Positions 2,742 to 57,813 of a stretch of DNA of 57,967 nucleotides are shown in pieces. The translations under genes and the position numbers were made by a program. Within the stretch, counting starts at the first letter, position 1. Every line of letters starts with the position of its first letter. The stretch is from Sulfurimonas sp. (lineage in GTDB: Bacteria; Campylobacterota; Campylobacteria; Campylobacterales; Sulfurimonadaceae), in contig JALUWT010000070.1 in assembly GCA_027019325.1 (NCBI GenBank), positions 1-57,967 on the forward strand. The letters are read 5' to 3'. The notes beneath the pieces are model-generated. The model searched no databases and was not told the origin of the DNA. It saw only the letters and a program-made list of their open reading frames with translations.

Positions 2742-4334
2742 TTAATGCCCTCCTTTTGCACGTTTAATAAACTTCTTAGCAAGATAAGGCGCAAACACAT
2801 AGGCGACAAAGAGCGAAACCGCCAAGGCAACAGGAACATTAAGCGGAATCGGCAGCATAAACTGTCCCATCATTCCTCCGACAAAGGCCATTGGAATCAT
2901 CGTTAGCATAATGGCAATCGTTGCAATATTTGTCGATGGCCCTATCTCATCAGTTGCTTCTATAATGATTTGATCAAAACTTTGATCCTGCGTCTCTTTT
3001 AGGTGCATCCTTCTGTGAATATTTTCAATGACAATAATTGCATCATCAACAATAAGCCCGAGTGAAAGTAAAAAAGCAAACAGAGTAATACGATTGATGG
3101 TCTGGTCTGTCATATAGGCAATGAAAAGCGTCGCCGCCAAAATCATCGGTACAGCAATTGTTACCACTAGGGACTCACGCCAACCTAAAAAGGGAATAAG
3201 AATCAAAGAGATAATTGCGATGGTTAAAACAAGATGATGTACCAGTTCATTTACCGCTTCATTAGCCCGTTCTCCATAGTTACGCGTGATGATATAGCCA
3301 AGTCCATTTTTTTGCAACTCTGGCTCATACTCTTTAAGCATATCAAGCACTTTTTCAGCCAAATGTACAGCATTTGCTCCCTTGAGCTTAGAAACTGTCA
3401 TGGTTACCTGATCTTCAGGATTACTCAGAGGTGAGCCATCTACTTTGTAAGAGATAAGTGCATCTTTATAATTCTGAATATCATAATAATACTCCACCTT
3501 CGCAACATCTTTCAAATAAATTAACGAGCCCATATACTTGGCAATGATGAGATTTTGAAGGTCTTCAACGGAATTGATAGCATTTTTTACCCCAAATACA
3601 ACTAATCTGTTGTCTTTACTCGGTATATCAATCTCAGAAGAATTTTTTGCAATCGCCTGAATCGACTTAGCAATCTGAATTACAGATATATGGTAAGCTG
3701 AGAGTTTATCTAAATCCATCAAAACATTAAACTGCGGCCGTTTTGCCCCTTTAAGGGTCGTTTTTGCTATATCTTGAATGGCATTTATATCTTGCTGGAT
3801 ATCTTTTATCTGTTTATAAAGTTTTATATGATCAATTCCTAAATCTTTTTTTTTGTAAAAAGCAACCGTTACAATGGGTACATCAATGTCAATATCAAAA
3901 GGTTTTACAATCGGATTCATTGCGCCACCTGGCAAAGAGTCCATATTTTGCATAACTTTGTCATAAAGTTTAAGGTTTGAGTTCTCTCTGTCTTCGCCAA
4001 TCTTGTACTGGACGTTAAGTATACCTACATTATTCATAGCTGTCGAATAGACATCTTTGACACCTTTTATCTCACTAATTTTTCGTTCAAAAGGTTTGAG
4101 TATGGCATTATCAATCTCAACAGGGGAGGCCCCCGGCATTGAAATAATGATAGAACCACCACTCACGGCAATCTGTGGATCTTCTTCACGCGGCATAATC
4201 TCTAAGGAGATATAACCTAAAGATAAAATAGCAATGGCTAAAATAGGGGTGAGCGGATTTTTTAAAAAAGCACGTGCCAAATAGCCTGCTATGTTTTTTA
4301 TTTTACTATGTTTCACCGACATCCCTTTTTTCAT
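2742..4334 (-). CDS. RND efflux permease, N-terminal half (split gene)
   Basis: This 530-residue protein is the first half of an AcrB-like inner-membrane proton/drug antiporter. TM1 is at about 28-48 and the periplasmic porter domain begins with MPREEDPQI. TM helices follow from about 368, including the TM4 proton-relay motif LIVDDAIIVIEN with both Asp residues. It ends after TM6, exactly where the AcrB halves join. The start ATG at 4334 has no clear Shine-Dalgarno; a second ATG (4322) has AAAAAAGGG too close to be useful. The gene diverges from the MORN gene across an AT-rich 193 bp gap. Substrate class (drug or metal) cannot be read from the sequence. Confidence 0.87.
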   Translation of the reverse strand: MKKGMSVKHSKIKNIAGYLARAFLKNPLTPILAIAILSLGYISLEIMPREEDPQIAVSGGSIIISMPGASPVEIDNAILKPFERKISEIKGVKDVYSTAMNNVGILNVQYKIGEDRENSNLKLYDKVMQNMDSLPGGAMNPIVKPFDIDIDVPIVTVAFYKKKDLGIDHIKLYKQIKDIQQDINAIQDIAKTTLKGAKRPQFNVLMDLDKLSAYHISVIQIAKSIQAIAKNSSEIDIPSKDNRLVVFGVKNAINSVEDLQNLIIAKYMGSLIYLKDVAKVEYYYDIQNYKDALISYKVDGSPLSNPEDQVTMTVSKLKGANAVHLAEKVLDMLKEYEPELQKNGLGYIITRNYGERANEAVNELVHHLVLTIAIISLILIPFLGWRESLVVTIAVPMILAATLFIAYMTDQTINRITLFAFLLSLGLIVDDAIIVIENIHRRMHLKETQDQSFDQIIIEATDEIGPSTNIATIAIMLTMIPMAFVGGMMGQFMLPIPLNVPVALAVSLFVAYVFAPYLAKKFIKRAKGGH

Positions 4335-4527
4335 ATATAAACTTATTTTATATTATAAACTCTAAAATACAAGATTATTTTATTTGTTATACAAATATTA
4401 CTCCATATCTTTACCATATTACCCAAATGTGAGATAAATAATAAAAAATAATACAATTATTACCCCTTTATACCAAATAAATTGTTATGCTTACAGTATA
4501 TAAGACTTCGTGTCAAAAGGGAAATAG

Positions 4528-48724: not shown

Positions 48725-49210
48725 ATGACTAGAGAGTTAGATGAAAATGACTTCATTATATCTAAAACCGACACCAAAGGTCGTCTCACATATGTAAATA
48801 AAATTTTTATGGACCTCGCAGAGTACACTGAAGAGGAGCTTTTAGGAAAACCTCATAATGTCGTGCGCCATCCTGATATGCCAAAGACAATCTTTAAGCT
48901 TTTATGGGAGCGAATCCAAAACAAGCAAGAAATTTTTGCCTATGTTGTAAACAAAACAAAAAATGGAAATGATTACTGGGTTTATGCCGATGTTACCCCG
49001 TCACTCGATGAGAGAGGCAACATAGTAGGTTACTATTCTGTTAGAAGAAAACCAAATGCCCAAGCGCTCGAAACCATCAAATCACTCTATGCAAAAATGC
49101 TTGCAGCTGAAAAGAGTGGTGGTATCGCAGCGGGAGAAAAAATTCTCAACGATTTTACACAGCAAGAAGGAGTAAGTTACGATGAACTTATCATCTCTAT
49201 TCAAAAATAA
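48725..49210 (+). CDS. PAS-domain energy-taxis protein (Aer/CetB-like)
   Basis: The 161-residue soluble protein is a single PAS domain (about 8-125) with the Aer-like pattern [32 protein letters not shown] and [15 protein letters not shown], likely FAD-binding, plus a C-terminal helix. It has no TM or signalling domain. The next gene is a chemoreceptor lacking a periplasmic sensor and overlaps it by 29 nt. Together they resemble the bipartite CetB/CetA energy-taxis pair of Campylobacter. AAGGTGG ribosome site. Confidence 0.85.
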
Positions 49211-50621
49211 CAAAACAGTTGTTTTACTACTAACACTACTTGGTGTTATCATATACAGTTTGATTGTTTCAAACTTTATTTTAAGTGGCATACTGCTAGC
49301 AATGATACTTGTGGCGATCTTCATACCTAACGCATGTGGACAACGTAAAAGTGATCCGCTCATCACGCAGATGCAACAGGTACTTTTTGATGCTTCAAAA
49401 GGAAGGCTTGAGGGCCGTGTTACACACATTCCAAATGACGACTCCAAAGAAGCGGCTTTTGCATGGACAGTTAATGATATGCTTGATCAGCTCGAAGCTT
49501 TTATGCGCGATGTCGCGGCAACAATTGAAGCTGCTGCTCAGGGAAAAACATACCGACATACTTATCCACAAGGTCTACAAGGGCTCTTTCATGCAACAGC
49601 CAAAACGGTTAATGGTGCTATTGCTTCCATTGCCAGCGGTTATGAAACGAAGATTAAAGGGGAGATGTCTGCTGACTTTACACGTCTTGGGGGTGGCGTT
49701 GCTGAAGGTCTTGGTATTATTCAAGGCGATTTAAATACCGCTTCAACAAATGCAAGTGAGATTGTCGAGGTATCAGACCAGACAGCTAAAGAGTCTGCAG
49801 AGTCACTCAGCAATGTTCTTGATATTGGAGAACGATTGAGTTCTCTTGTTGAACTTATTGCTTCATCACATGAGGGCATCATCTCTCTTGAGAGCAGAAG
49901 CAGTGAGATTTCTGAAGTCATCGGGCTCATTAAGGACATCGCTGACCAAACAAACCTTCTTGCACTCAACGCTGCCATCGAAGCAGCACGTGCCGGTGAG
50001 CATGGGCGTGGTTTTGCTGTCGTTGCCGATGAGGTACGAAAACTGGCAGAACGCACACAAAAAGCGACAAATGAGATAGAGATCACCATCTCAACCCTCC
50101 AACAGGAGGCAAATGATATGCGAGGCAATTCAGATGAAATTACGAACATTGCTCAGAAGTCAAATTCAGTTATCAATGAGTTTGAAATCACTTTTAAAGA
50201 CCTGAATCATCTTGCCCAAAGAGCTTCTGCTACAGCAGTTGACGTTCAAAACCGTCTCTTTACAACACTTGTCAAAGTTGACCACATTCTCTTTAAGTCC
50301 AATGCCTACTCGGCAATACTCAATGAAGATACAAACAAATCTTTTCCTGACCATCAACACTGCCGTATGGGTCAATGGTATGCTAATCTTGGAAAAGAAC
50401 GTTTTGGCAATACAAAAGCATTTAGAGCTATGGATGTGCCGCATGCAACAGTGCACAATATGGTCTTTAAAAATCTTGAATTTATTAAAAATCACTCTGT
50501 CATTAAATATGACCACCCTAAAATCATTACAGAGAATTTTGTGGAGATGGAAAATGCATCGAAAACGCTTTTTACTGATCTTGATAACATGCTTGAAGAG
50601 TATAAAGCAATTAAATCTTAG
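49182..50621 (+). CDS. Membrane chemoreceptor with CZB zinc-binding domain (CetA-like)
   Basis: The 479-residue receptor has two closely spaced TM helices (about 12-48), a HAMP-like region, a helical segment, the signalling core [20 protein letters not shown] and a C-terminal CZB domain (about 360-475). The domain has [19 protein letters not shown] and PHATVH, the His/Cys/His/His zinc set. With almost no periplasmic part it should take its signal from the PAS protein encoded just before. CZB domains bind zinc and can sense oxidants such as hypochlorous acid, so the pair may integrate redox and metal signals. Confidence 0.9.
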
Positions 50622-52600: not shown

Positions 52601-53224
52601 ATGAATATGCTCCGCGGACTCTTTTTCTTGGCACTTCTTTTTCTACCTCTGTTGCATGCAGAGCAGCTCATCACAAAAAAGCTTGAAGAGCGTGCACTTG
52701 AAAAATATGGTGCTTTTGCAAAAAACAGGTTTGTTGCCATTGACAAAGACCTGCTACACAAACTCAAATCTGCCTCAACTATAAAAAAACTCAACACCGT
52801 CAACACCTGGATAAACTTCATTCACTACAAAAGCGATATGAAGACTTATGGCGTGAGTGATTACTGGGCAACCCTCTATGAGTTTGTTGGGAAAAATGCA
52901 GGAGATTGTGAAGACTACACCATTGCAAAATATTACATTTTAAAAGCGCTAGGCATCGACCCACATAGAATGAAATTTGCTTATGTTATATACCAAGACA
53001 GGCAAGGCAGACAAATTTCGCACATGGTTCTTGCCTATTTCAAAGTGCCCAAGCCAAAAAACAAAGATGAAATTCTCATTCTTGGGAATAACAACAGATT
53101 TGTGCTGCCGGCATCTAAACGACCTGACTTAATCAAAGTGATAAAGATGATTAATGGTGATACCGGTCCAAAATCAAAAAAATGGAAAAGATTGGAAGCC
53201 AACATGAAAAGGAAAAAATTATGA
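52601..53224 (+). CDS. lapG: LapG-type periplasmic cysteine protease
   Basis: The 207-residue protein has a signal peptide (1-20, cut after LHA) and the transglutaminase-like (BTLCP, PF06035) fold of LapG, which cuts large adhesins from the cell surface. Cys103 is in NAGDCEDYT and His141 in SHMVLAYF, 38 residues apart as in Pseudomonas LapG. The third catalytic Asp normally in LDN is Gly here (LGNNN, about 162), so activity is uncertain. It overlaps the LapD-like gene by 4 nt (ATGA). No giant adhesin or type I exporter is in the window. Confidence 0.85.
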   Translation: MNMLRGLFFLALLFLPLLHAEQLITKKLEERALEKYGAFAKNRFVAIDKDLLHKLKSASTIKKLNTVNTWINFIHYKSDMKTYGVSDYWATLYEFVGKNAGDCEDYTIAKYYILKALGIDPHRMKFAYVIYQDRQGRQISHMVLAYFKVPKPKNKDEILILGNNNRFVLPASKRPDLIKVIKMINGDTGPKSKKWKRLEANMKRKKL

Positions 53225-55146
53225 CACTATTTAAACAGATGGCCTTGGCACTCTCACTCATGATAATAACGATTTTAGGTTCTGTTATGGCCATAAACTA
53301 TGAAACAGCCAAAAAAGATATGTTGGAAAGTCTCTACCAGACAACTGTCAATAATATCTCTGCACTCACAAATAAAATCGCCCAAACAGGCGGTGAGCCT
53401 GCAGTCATTACCAGCATTATAGACTCAGAATTTGACAGTGGTTACTACAAACGCATCAAGTTTGTCTCTAACGATGCGAGCTTCACATATACACAAGAGG
53501 ACAATGAGCCCGTAGCAGATGTACCGGCATGGTTTGTAAACTTTGCAGACATTCGCCTCAAAGCCGTGAGTGCTGATGTTACTTCAGGCTGGAATATCAT
53601 CGGAAAGCTCACAGTAGAAGCAGATACAGATATAGTCTATGAGACTCTCTACCAAACATTTAGCAAACTGCTCTATCTGTTTGTTATTTTTGTAGCTATC
53701 TCTCTGTTTGTTTTAAGCGTTATGCTTCACTTCATCCTCAAACCTCTGCAGCGCATACAGCATCAGGCAGAAGCCATTCTCAAAAATGAGTTTCTTATTG
53801 AAACGAAAGAGCCTTATACAACAGAGTTTCAAGAGGTCTCCCGTGCGATGAATACAATGGTGAAAAAAGTTGAGGAGATATTTAACAAAGCAAATATTGC
53901 CGCACAGCGAAACAAAGAGCTTCTTTATAATGACCCTGTAACAAAACTCTTTAATCGTCGTTACCTTATGCTTAAACTTCCTGAACTGATTCAGCTTGAA
54001 ACAAAGAATGAGGGTGGCAGCATTATGCTCATAGCCCTCAGCAGTGCAGAGCTTTTAAACAAGCAGCTTGGACACAAAGAGGCCGATGAATTTTTCTCTT
54101 CTTTGGCAAAGATCTTTGAAAAGGAGTGTGAAGATATCGAAGAGAAAATCATTTCCCGTGTCAATGGAACAGAGTTTACACTGATGCTACCTGATTGTGA
54201 GTCCTACCTATCTGAATCTATCTCACGCAACATCTTTGAAGCTTTTCTCGATTTGGCCCAAGAGAATGGTGTAGATACAGAAGAAATTTACATAAACATC
54301 GGTATCTACAGATACAGACCGGATGTCACGCTCAGTGAACTCTTAACCCGTGCGGATGATGCACTCACAAAAGCCAAAGCCGATGAGCGCCAAAACATCT
54401 ATGTCTATGAAGAGAAAAATGCTAAAAAGGCACTCCCTAAAGAGGAGTGGAGAGCTATACTTGAGGAGTCCATCGAGAAAAACTACTTCAGTCTGAAATT
54501 TTGGCCGACGCTTGACAGCAAAACAAAAGAGATTAACCATAAAGTCATGACCTTCACGATAGATGGCGGAGAGAACAAACGCTTCTACTATGGAGATTTC
54601 ATCGCACCGGCAATCAACCTTGGCCTTGTAGGAAAAATGTATCTTGTAGCCCTTAAAGAACTCCTTACTATGCAGCACCCGCAACTGAGTGGAGGAACAT
54701 GTTCCATCCGCCTCTCCAATGAGTTTTTAAAAGACTCTAAGGCCTTTGATGAGCTCTCCACCCTCTTTTATCTTTATGCCAAAAAACTCAACTTCAAACT
54801 CTTTTTTGAAGTCTCTGACACATTTGCAACACACAATACTGCTACAGTTAAGGGATTTGTAGATCTTTTTAAACAGTATAATTATGGTTTTGGCATAAAT
54901 GCTTTTACGGGAGAATCTAGTGACTTTCATTACTTAAAAGAGCTTAACCCTGCATTTATCAAAGCGGATGTCTCTTTCTTGCTTGATCAGACCGAGGAGT
55001 CTATGAACTCTCTTGAGGTCATTACAAAATCACTCGGCATAGAGATCATTGCCAGTTTTGTAAAAGATGAGCAAGAACTTGCAGCCCTGCAGGCTTTACA
55101 TATTGATAAAATACAGGGGCCAATAACAGATAATCTTCAGCTATAA
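53221..55146 (+). CDS. lapD: LapD-like c-di-GMP receptor (degenerate GGDEF-EAL)
   Basis: Starting at ATG 53221 behind AAGGAA, the 641-residue protein has TM1 (about 7-26), a periplasmic LapD/MoxY-type domain (about 27-148, including [10 protein letters not shown]), TM2 (about 155-178), HAMP, GGDEF and EAL domains. GGDEF reads VNGTEF and the EAL segment HKVMTF, and other catalytic EAL residues are replaced, so it should bind rather than turn over c-di-GMP. LapD sequesters LapG when c-di-GMP is high, keeping adhesins on the surface. An upstream-extended frame is not used. Confidence 0.9.
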
Positions 55147-55184: not shown

Positions 55185-56276
55185 ATGTTTGGATGCAGTG
55201 GCAAGATAGAAAAAATAGAGAAGACATATAAAGAGAGGATTCAAGCTTTAGAAGAGGAAAAGCAGAGGTTGCAAAATGAACTCTCTCAGGTTCAAGCACT
55301 CACTGCATCACCCCAAAAAGAGGATGATGAAACAAAAAAGCTCTTAGATATCGTCATTAAAAGTTATAGTGACGGCACACAATTTTTACAGCAGACCATC
55401 GAAGACAATCTTCTGCAACTTGAAGACATCAATGAACTGAACTCCAAGACAAATACCAGAATGGTCAATGTCGAAGCACAAACATCCGAGATTGCCACGA
55501 CGATTGAAAACATTCAAGCACATGCCAATACACTTGGAGATGATTCCAACTCCCTTAATGACAGCGTCATGTCCATCGCAGAGATCATCAATCTCATTAA
55601 AGATATCTCAGACCAGACAAACCTGCTTGCACTCAATGCTGCCATAGAAGCGGCGCGTGCCGGTGAACATGGACGTGGCTTTGCTGTCGTTGCTGATGAA
55701 GTGCGTAAACTTGCAGAACGCACACAAAAAGCGACACAAGAAGTAGAAATAAACATCAACGGCCTCAAACAGAATTCAAACTCCATGATGGAAATTAGTA
55801 ACACCTTCATAGACGAGACAGGTAAAGTGATGGAGATTATTGACATATTCAAAGAAAACATTGCAAAAGTCGTAGAGAACTCTGAAGAGATTAAGAACAA
55901 AACACTCTCACTTACAAATGAGTTTAACGTGAGTAACGGTAAAATCGACCACATTGCACTCAAAATTGTAGGTTATAAAGCTATTATAGCACGAGAAGAG
56001 GTAAGCATAGCAGATGAAAATAGCTGCCGATTTGGAAAATGGTTCACAGAAGTCTCCAACACTCTACTCAAAGGCAGTTCACATATTACGAGCATTTCTA
56101 AACACCATCAGATTGTTCATCAAGGCCTCAGAAAAGCTATGAAAGATGCTAAAGAAGGCAATCTTTCTGCATCACTTGATGAATTACAAAAAGTCGAACA
56201 CTCTAGTGATGCAGGATTTGAAGAGTTGCTCCAAACAGTCAAAGAAGCGACTGCAAAAGCCCATACTAAAGCTTAA
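55185..56276 (+). CDS. Soluble TlpD-like chemoreceptor with CZB domain
   Basis: The 363-residue cytoplasmic receptor has an N-terminal coiled coil, the signalling core [20 protein letters not shown] and a C-terminal CZB domain with [19 protein letters not shown] and HHQIVH, the complete 3His/Cys zinc site. There is no TM helix. This matches TlpD of Helicobacter pylori, which senses oxidants and energy state. ATG 55185 follows AAAGGAC; an adjacent TTG at 55182 is less likely. Confidence 0.9.
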
Positions 56277-56719
56277 AACCCTCTGGAGTTTAAACCTTTT
56301 GTCAGAGAGTCATTGATCTCTCTGACATACTCTGGATTACGTTTTTCCAGTGCTTTATCAAATTTGATAATGATATCTTTATTTGTGTTGGGATGTCGGC
56401 AGATACGCAATAAAATTTCCGAGTAAATGTCAAATTCTGGATGTGTGCGAATACCAAGTTTTGTATGAATGTGTCCATAGTGTGTGATGATTAAATCAAG
56501 CGCTTCAGAGAGTTCTTTTGTCGTAGCATGTTTATCGCGTATGACTTTAAGCAGATTTTGTAACTCATAATTTTGTTTTAGCTTACTTTCTTTAATAAGC
56601 TTCTTTTGTTTTTGCGCTGTTTTTTTCTTTTTTGAGAGCGTATAGAGAAAAAAGAGAATTAAAATCCCTAAAATTATAGCAAGCCCCATAATAGATTTGA
56701 CAAGAAGAACAATATCCAT
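56273..56719 (-). CDS. Single-TM helical protein, unknown
   Basis: Starting at ATG 56719, which overlaps the stop of the upstream gene (TAATG), the 148-residue protein has an N-terminal TM helix (about 7-28), a basic linker ([11 protein letters not shown]) and a cytoplasmic helical domain with [33 protein letters not shown]. No family recognised. Coupling to the cytochrome-like lipoprotein upstream suggests a shared function. Confidence 0.6.
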
Positions 56720-57345
56720 TACTGCTCCTTCTCCCAAGGACTTCGTGCATACCGGTTCAGATCATACAAACCGGAATTCACCGGTTCTGCTGCATCAAAA
56801 TGAGCTTGAAACCAATCATAAACCTTCCAAAAATCTTTGTCAGAACGGGAGATAAAATACTTTTTCATTCTTCGTATATCATTAGCACTATTCTTCGAAT
56901 TTTTCATCAGGTCAATAAAATCAGCAAGATCCTTAAACTTTACAACAACAAACACATTCGGGTACGAGCCGACACTTCTGTCTAGTATATCCATCGTACC
57001 TTTTTTAGGATTCAACCTGCTCTTTTCACCAAAAAGAGCATTTACATTGTCGTGCCAACGGTTAATGACAAGATTTTTCGTTATAAATGTTCCATCAGGC
57101 ATATCAATATATAAAAAGATATTATTTGCGCCTCTGTCTATGCCCTCAAAAGAGTTAAACTTTGCCTGACATGGCAAGCCATAACAGGAGTGACAAACAA
57201 CACAGCGTTTATCTAAAATAGGCTTGACATCTTTCACATAATCTATGGAATTTTTTGTAGGACTAACAGCAACAGGTTTTGGCATCGGTGCGCTACAAGC
57301 TGTAAAAAAAAGAATCAAAGGTATCGTAAGAAGAGAAAAACGCAT
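56719..57345 (-). CDS. Miniature fatty-acid cis/trans isomerase-like heme lipoprotein
   Basis: The 208-residue protein has a lipobox (LFFTAC, Cys17) and then DYVKDVKPILDKRCVVCHSCYGLPCQ, the N-terminal heme c segment of cis/trans isomerases (Cti), with CVVCH at 48-52. After about residue 85 it reads like the C-terminus of Cti: LVINRWHDNVNALFGE, SYPNVFVVVK and SGLYDLNRY. Cti enzymes are about 750-780 residues; the central part of some 500 residues is missing but the frame is open and neatly coupled to the next gene. It could be an internally deleted but still expressed protein. Cti similarity is from memory, not from an alignment. Confidence 0.65.
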   Translation of the reverse strand: MRFSLLTIPLILFFTACSAPMPKPVAVSPTKNSIDYVKDVKPILDKRCVVCHSCYGLPCQAKFNSFEGIDRGANNIFLYIDMPDGTFITKNLVINRWHDNVNALFGEKSRLNPKKGTMDILDRSVGSYPNVFVVVKFKDLADFIDLMKNSKNSANDIRRMKKYFISRSDKDFWKVYDWFQAHFDAAEPVNSGLYDLNRYARSPWEKEQ

Positions 57346-57381: not shown

Positions 57382-57813
57382 CTAAAAAAGAAAAGGGAGC
57401 AGTCTCCTTGTTCGCTTCGTATATGCTTCATACTCTGGGCTGTGGCACTGCCATAAGCCCTCTTCATAAAAAAGCTTTACTAACAAAATAAGCACTAAAA
57501 AGATATAGAGAGCAAACTCATAGTAGGTAAAATATATAACGCTCACACCAAACATCATCAACAAAACGGAGAGGTACATGGGGTGTCTGACATAGGCATA
57601 AATGCCATCTGTCACAAGTTCACAATTCTCTTTAATGTCAGGACGAATGTTGAAATTTCCCGACTTATGTGCACCAACACCCAAAAGCCCAATAATCCCA
57701 CCGGCTAATAAAATCACACCGCCAAGATAAAGATGAATTGTAGGTGTACCCAAGGGCAAAATCATTAAAAAGATGATAAAAAACTGCAGAAATACTAATA
57801 TTTTACTTTTCAT
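57382..57813 (-). CDS. ICMT/PEMT-type membrane methyltransferase
   Basis: From ATG 57813 the 143-residue protein has three or four TM helices and the isoprenylcysteine carboxyl methyltransferase pattern DGIYAYVRHPMYLSVLLMM, then YEEGLWQCHSPEYEAYTKRTRRLLPFLF. Such proteins use S-adenosylmethionine to methylate lipids or terminal carboxyls; the substrate is unknown. The start is favoured by a TATAAT 6 nt upstream; an ATG at 57876 with GGGGA before it would add a further helix (164 residues) and cannot be excluded. Confidence 0.8.
   Translation of the reverse strand: MKSKILVFLQFFIIFLMILPLGTPTIHLYLGGVILLAGGIIGLLGVGAHKSGNFNIRPDIKENCELVTDGIYAYVRHPMYLSVLLMMFGVSVIYFTYYEFALYIFLVLILLVKLFYEEGLWQCHSPEYEAYTKRTRRLLPFLF

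Follow-up and report, generated by a model that had tools for sequence, protein, structure and literature searches.

A probable deletion remnant of the isomerase gene cti at a conserved Sulfurimonas locus

A short open frame with the two ends of Cti

We analysed a stretch of 57,967 nt, referred to here as the window, on contig JALUWT010000070.1 of the Sulfurimonas sp. assembly GCA_027019325.1, a genome of 218 contigs with 94% completeness and 7.7% contamination. The genes and features of the locus are as follows.

55185 to 56276, plus strand: chemoreceptor (MCPsignal and CZB domains), a syntenic marker
56273 to 56719, minus strand: small membrane-type partner of 148 aa, overlapping the stop of the next gene (TAATG)
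56719 to 57345, minus strand: probable cti remnant, an open 208-codon lipoprotein frame with an ATG start and a Pfam CTI match
56719 to 57139, minus strand: retained 3' cti segment (approximately sister codons 651 to 789), 95% identical in DNA to the sister gene
57126 to 57138, minus strand: GACAGAGGcGCAA, one fused copy of the imperfect 13-bp direct repeat found in the sister on either side of the 1743 bp missing here
57140 to 57345, minus strand: retained 5' cti segment with start, lipobox and CXXCH haem motif, 91% identical in DNA to the sister gene
57190 to 57204, minus strand: haem-attachment motif CVVCH, followed by SCYGLPCQ, with Asn56 changed to Gly and Ser57 to Leu relative to the sister
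57295 to 57306, minus strand: lipobox FTAC, read by eye
57382 to 57810, minus strand: methyltransferase (PEMT/ICMT type) upstream of the remnant, a syntenic marker

An earlier note on this DNA had described a 208-residue lipoprotein that joins two segments of the Cti family (fatty acid cis/trans isomerase), the N-terminal one with the haem motif and the C-terminal one, and this description is accurate. The open frame is exactly as given, residues 67-200 match positions 558-691 of the 692 in the Pfam CTI profile (PF06934; E = 1.4e-34, 120.2 bits against a cut-off of 25), and the N-terminal residues (about 70), which include RCVVCHSCYGLPCQ, can be aligned with full-length Cti proteins at their haem-bearing N-terminus. 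The covalent haem motif CXXCH is present near the N-terminus as CVVCH (residues 48-52). In a profile search of the window's own genome, this frame was the sole CTI match.

Two other features of the window are recorded here as side observations. At 52601-55146, a LapG-like transglutaminase-type protease (Peptidase_C93) adjoins a LapD-like protein (LapD_MoxY_N, GGDEF and EAL); the two probably form a pair for c-di-GMP control of adhesion. About 5 kb separates two proteins of chemoreceptor type, at 49182-50621 and 55185-56276, each with a zinc-binding CZB domain at its C-terminus.

A full-length cti at the same locus in sister genomes

The nearest relative that we found is the Sulfurimonas MAG G165 (contig C15, JALVXQ010000015.1), which is about 91% identical to the window in DNA here. 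Its locus consists of the methyltransferase, a cti of 789 codons, the partner, the chemoreceptor and the GGDEF-EAL genes; this cti is split over two contigs with exactly 127 bases in common, and when joined gives 789 uninterrupted codons. In G101 the locus lies on a contig of 2.03 Mb, with an intact 789-codon cti and the same flanking genes. The proposed descent of the short gene from a Cti isomerase is upheld by the syntenic full-length homologue in the sister and by the C-terminal part of the short gene, which does align with Cti; a lack of such alignment had been named as a refutation. A full-length homologue at the same locus in sister strains had been named as a sign of recent deletion rather than of a miniature protein, and such a homologue is what G165 carries, as a sister species rather than a strain.

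The window gene equals the sister gene minus exactly 1743 bp (581 codons, in frame), a larger loss than the roughly 500 residues estimated earlier. Alignment with the full-length gene, which had been suggested as a check, placed the best breakpoint after nucleotide 206 of the gene (about position 57140), at the edge of GACAGAGGnGCAA. This repeat is present at both ends of the missing stretch in the sister and once in the window, where 0.01 matches to it would be expected by chance. Deletions between short direct repeats typically leave a join of this kind.

What the deletion took away

We assessed conservation with 52 full-length Ctis from the clade and further relatives, no pair of which is more than 99.5% identical, using columns with enough coverage. 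Invariant in all 52 were 98 columns, 11 of them in the retained N-terminal part, 73 in the deleted part and 14 in the retained C-terminal part; with 73 of the 98 invariant columns gone, the central conserved core of the enzyme is not found in the remnant. The sole invariant methionine, Met170 in sister numbering, falls inside the deleted part. In PMC11727003, Cti of P. aeruginosa is described as a haem-c periplasmic lipid cis-trans isomerase whose single conserved methionine, Met163, is the sixth ligand of the haem iron, and whose trans product falls from 80% in the wild type to 26% in M163A and 1% in M163H. Met170 probably corresponds to Met163, because each is the single conserved Met; this putative sixth haem ligand is thus absent from the remnant.

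The earlier note had also remarked that the usual Asp in CYDAPCQ is here replaced by Gly. The Gly is real; in this clade the usual residue is Asn (Asn56, which adjoins the haem motif), and all 52 full-length Ctis have it there. The Asp form, CHGCYDAPCQ, was seen in a contig-end Cti piece of G181 (L071, 21-524), unlike the Asn form of the genus; this piece perhaps stems from a different lineage or from contamination.

Substitutions in the retained codons

We polarised the changes over the retained 208 codons with G101 as outgroup. The window branch carries 11 replacements to 4 synonymous changes and the sister branch 2 to 7, with three further replacements of unresolved branch; the 15 polarised changes of the window branch are small counts, and synonymous sites are saturated to the outgroup. 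Control genes (the partner, the chemoreceptor and part of the GGDEF-EAL gene), with unresolved changes left out, gave ratios of 18:68 on the window branch and 18:50 on the sister branch, so that their replacements are balanced at 18 on each. By Fisher's test, the window ratio differs from that of the sister (p = 0.033) and from the window-branch controls (p = 1.3e-4), whereas on the sister branch the retained codons do not differ from the controls (p = 1.0). Five of the 11 window replacements, namely Asn56Gly, Ser57Leu, Ser64Asn, Arg79Tyr and Asp116Gly (window numbering), give residues that were seen in none of the 52 full-length relatives. Judged by these ratios (11:4 against 2:7 and 18:68), the retained codons of the window look as if they evolve unconstrained.

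Three observations count against a reading of the gene as decaying: an open frame of 208 codons with neither stop nor frameshift; a dN/dS of 0.17, below 1, when the retained parts are compared with the sister, although this pairwise distance also covers the sister branch and whatever time preceded the deletion; and confident AlphaFold values for the C-terminal segment. When 15 substitutions were simulated neutrally, 60% of runs acquired no stop, and 76% of changes were replacements compared with the 73% (11/15) observed. Since so many neutral runs keep the frame open, the open frame is no evidence for use, and the lack of a stop or frameshift does not exclude decay. In the AlphaFold model, residues 71-190 have mean pLDDT values of 71-96 by blocks of ten, from a 29-row alignment borrowed from full-length relatives; a model built on such an alignment is no demonstration that the remnant itself folds. 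In a model of a full-length relative (L034, 1383-3770; pLDDT 81), the deleted stretch contains the helices that immediately precede the first retained strand.

Losses of cti in other genomes

Searched against 135 genomes of the genus, the short protein found a match in 34, and residues 1-208 occur in one piece only in the window's own genome. The other matches are separate N- and C-terminal pieces of longer frames, single pieces, many of which belong to cut or broken copies, or relicts. PF06934 matches occur in 59 of the 228 family genomes, 58 of them over the cut-off, with several of the short matches sitting at contig ends, and in 38 of the 397 genomes of the phylum, where they fall below full length only in G000, in G093 (frameshifted, two pieces) and in a second copy in G145. 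Mini-versions beside the same partner, which the earlier note had proposed to look for, did not turn up: no other such mini appears among the 135 genus or the 397 phylum genomes.

Decayed copies of cti are found instead. In G096 (L084, about 4150-4263) the cti that lies between this methyltransferase and this partner has eroded to about 30 codons of the 3' end; as we read the sequence, the first few cti codons are fused to these, with the start codon changed from ATG to ATA. In G109 (L083, about 4230-4465) the methyltransferase is followed directly by a 39-residue match to cti, and the stretch reads as a cti relict followed by the tail of the partner gene. In another genus of the family, G220 (L076, 3552-4315) carries an independent copy of cti that lacks a large internal stretch and changes frame at the join. 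The cti of G211 is in broken pieces, a frameshift near residue 243 (L077, 5377-5395) divides the gene in G093, a genome of one contig, and the second copy in G145 is N-terminally short. The recurrent event is the loss of cti, at several stages of decay, at one conserved Sulfurimonas locus.

We also considered the partner as a functional pair with a mini-Cti and rejected this. It overlaps the cti stop in the full-length gene of the sister as it does in the window, and it occurs in 115 of the 135 genomes of the genus, with or without cti, whereas cti-like matches of any kind occur in 34. Being far commoner than cti, it is no marker of a mini-Cti system.

A gene in probable decay and the alternatives

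The homology, the shared locus, the breakpoint at a repeat, the loss of most invariant positions and the excess of replacements on the window branch are matters of observation. The explanation that we hold with high confidence is that an in-frame deletion of 1743 bp reduced an ordinary full-length cti to the short gene, which would be a gene in decay and not a new miniature protein. The deletion would have arisen by chance between the 13-bp imperfect direct repeats, in the lineage of this Sulfurimonas, through slippage or short-homology recombination, removing the middle three quarters of the gene. Its product, if made, would be a lipoprotein with an unfinished haem half and a C-terminal domain without its leading helices, predicted to lack isomerase activity and probably without function. 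The frame would still be open through having received too few mutations to close it, and an in-frame deletion upstream of a translationally coupled partner may have been tolerated, possibly helping the frame to survive.

The chief remaining doubt concerns polymorphism in the sampled population: cells with a full-length cti might coexist with those represented by this contig, a situation that would be compatible with decay and that we regard as unlikely. In so fragmented and incomplete an assembly, a middle piece of less than 2 kb could have stayed unbinned. However, the middle part was found nowhere else in the genome, in a search with the sister's middle as query and without a positive control, and the retained codons of this very contig are already relaxed, which suggests that the loss is not of yesterday.

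We consider it very improbable that the short gene is an assembly artefact, in which the two copies of the repeat were merged and the sequence between them was left out. The join does lie exactly on the repeat, but a repeat of 13 bp with a mismatch could not alone cause such a collapse, because usual assembly word lengths exceed 13 bp, and the excess of replacements on the retained codons fits a real and older loss.

The suggestion that the short form works as a one-haem lipoprotein, an electron carrier or sensor trimmed from an isomerase, is very unlikely to be right. The CXXCH motif, lipobox and frame are intact, and the model shows the C-terminal segment folded as a unit. Against this, the family's only invariant Met, taken as the sixth haem ligand, is deleted, the otherwise invariant Asn56 is substituted, the replacements are in excess on the window branch and look unconstrained, the haem segment (residues 47-70) has a pLDDT of about 34 in a model to which AlphaFold adds no haem, and no second genome has the mini. 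The lipobox, ribosome context and coupled neighbour cited in favour of the short form are indeed present; as evidence for its function they do not serve, all three being inherited from the full-length gene. A dead gene can inherit all of these together with an open frame, which we offer as a warning.

It is very unlikely that the remnant has been kept, with adaptive replacements, in a new role as a haem-independent, membrane-anchored Cti C-terminal domain, weakly SCP2-like and possibly lipid-binding.

A fold search of the mini model against the PDB gave no match at E <= 0.001, the best (0.027) being a sterol carrier protein. The best VIA-align Z was 3.3 for the mini and 4.6 for the C-terminal part of the full-length relative (residues about 630-793), and SCP2-type folds recur among the matches. 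We considered an SCP2-type fold for the C-terminal part and, with a best Z of 4.6, found it too weak to claim; the weak likeness to SCP2-type lipid carriers may offer a clue to the way in which Cti handles lipid. A PDB sequence search with full-length Cti gave one match, to hydrazine synthase (E = 0.0095), in the region of the haem motif.

Comparison with known systems

Among the papers searched, none came up for cti together with pseudogenes. Repeated loss of cti at one locus makes a small resource on when a membrane-stress enzyme becomes dispensable.

The remnant shares with P. aeruginosa Cti (PMC11727003) the CXXCH haem motif and the C-terminal family segment; unlike it, the remnant is without the central region and without the conserved haem-binding methionine. 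Compared with the 789-aa Cti of G165, the window copy has the same neighbours and two retained segments that are 91-95% identical in DNA, but it lacks 581 codons (about 70-650) and carries 11 replacements on its own branch. The relicts of G096 and G109 resemble it as eroded cti genes between the same flanking genes, and are much more reduced. The marks of a pseudogene or deletion remnant, an intact syntenic homologue in close relatives (G165 and G101) and relaxed constraint, are both found here. This looks like ordinary gene decay in a lineage that has lost the enzyme, caught while the frame is open.
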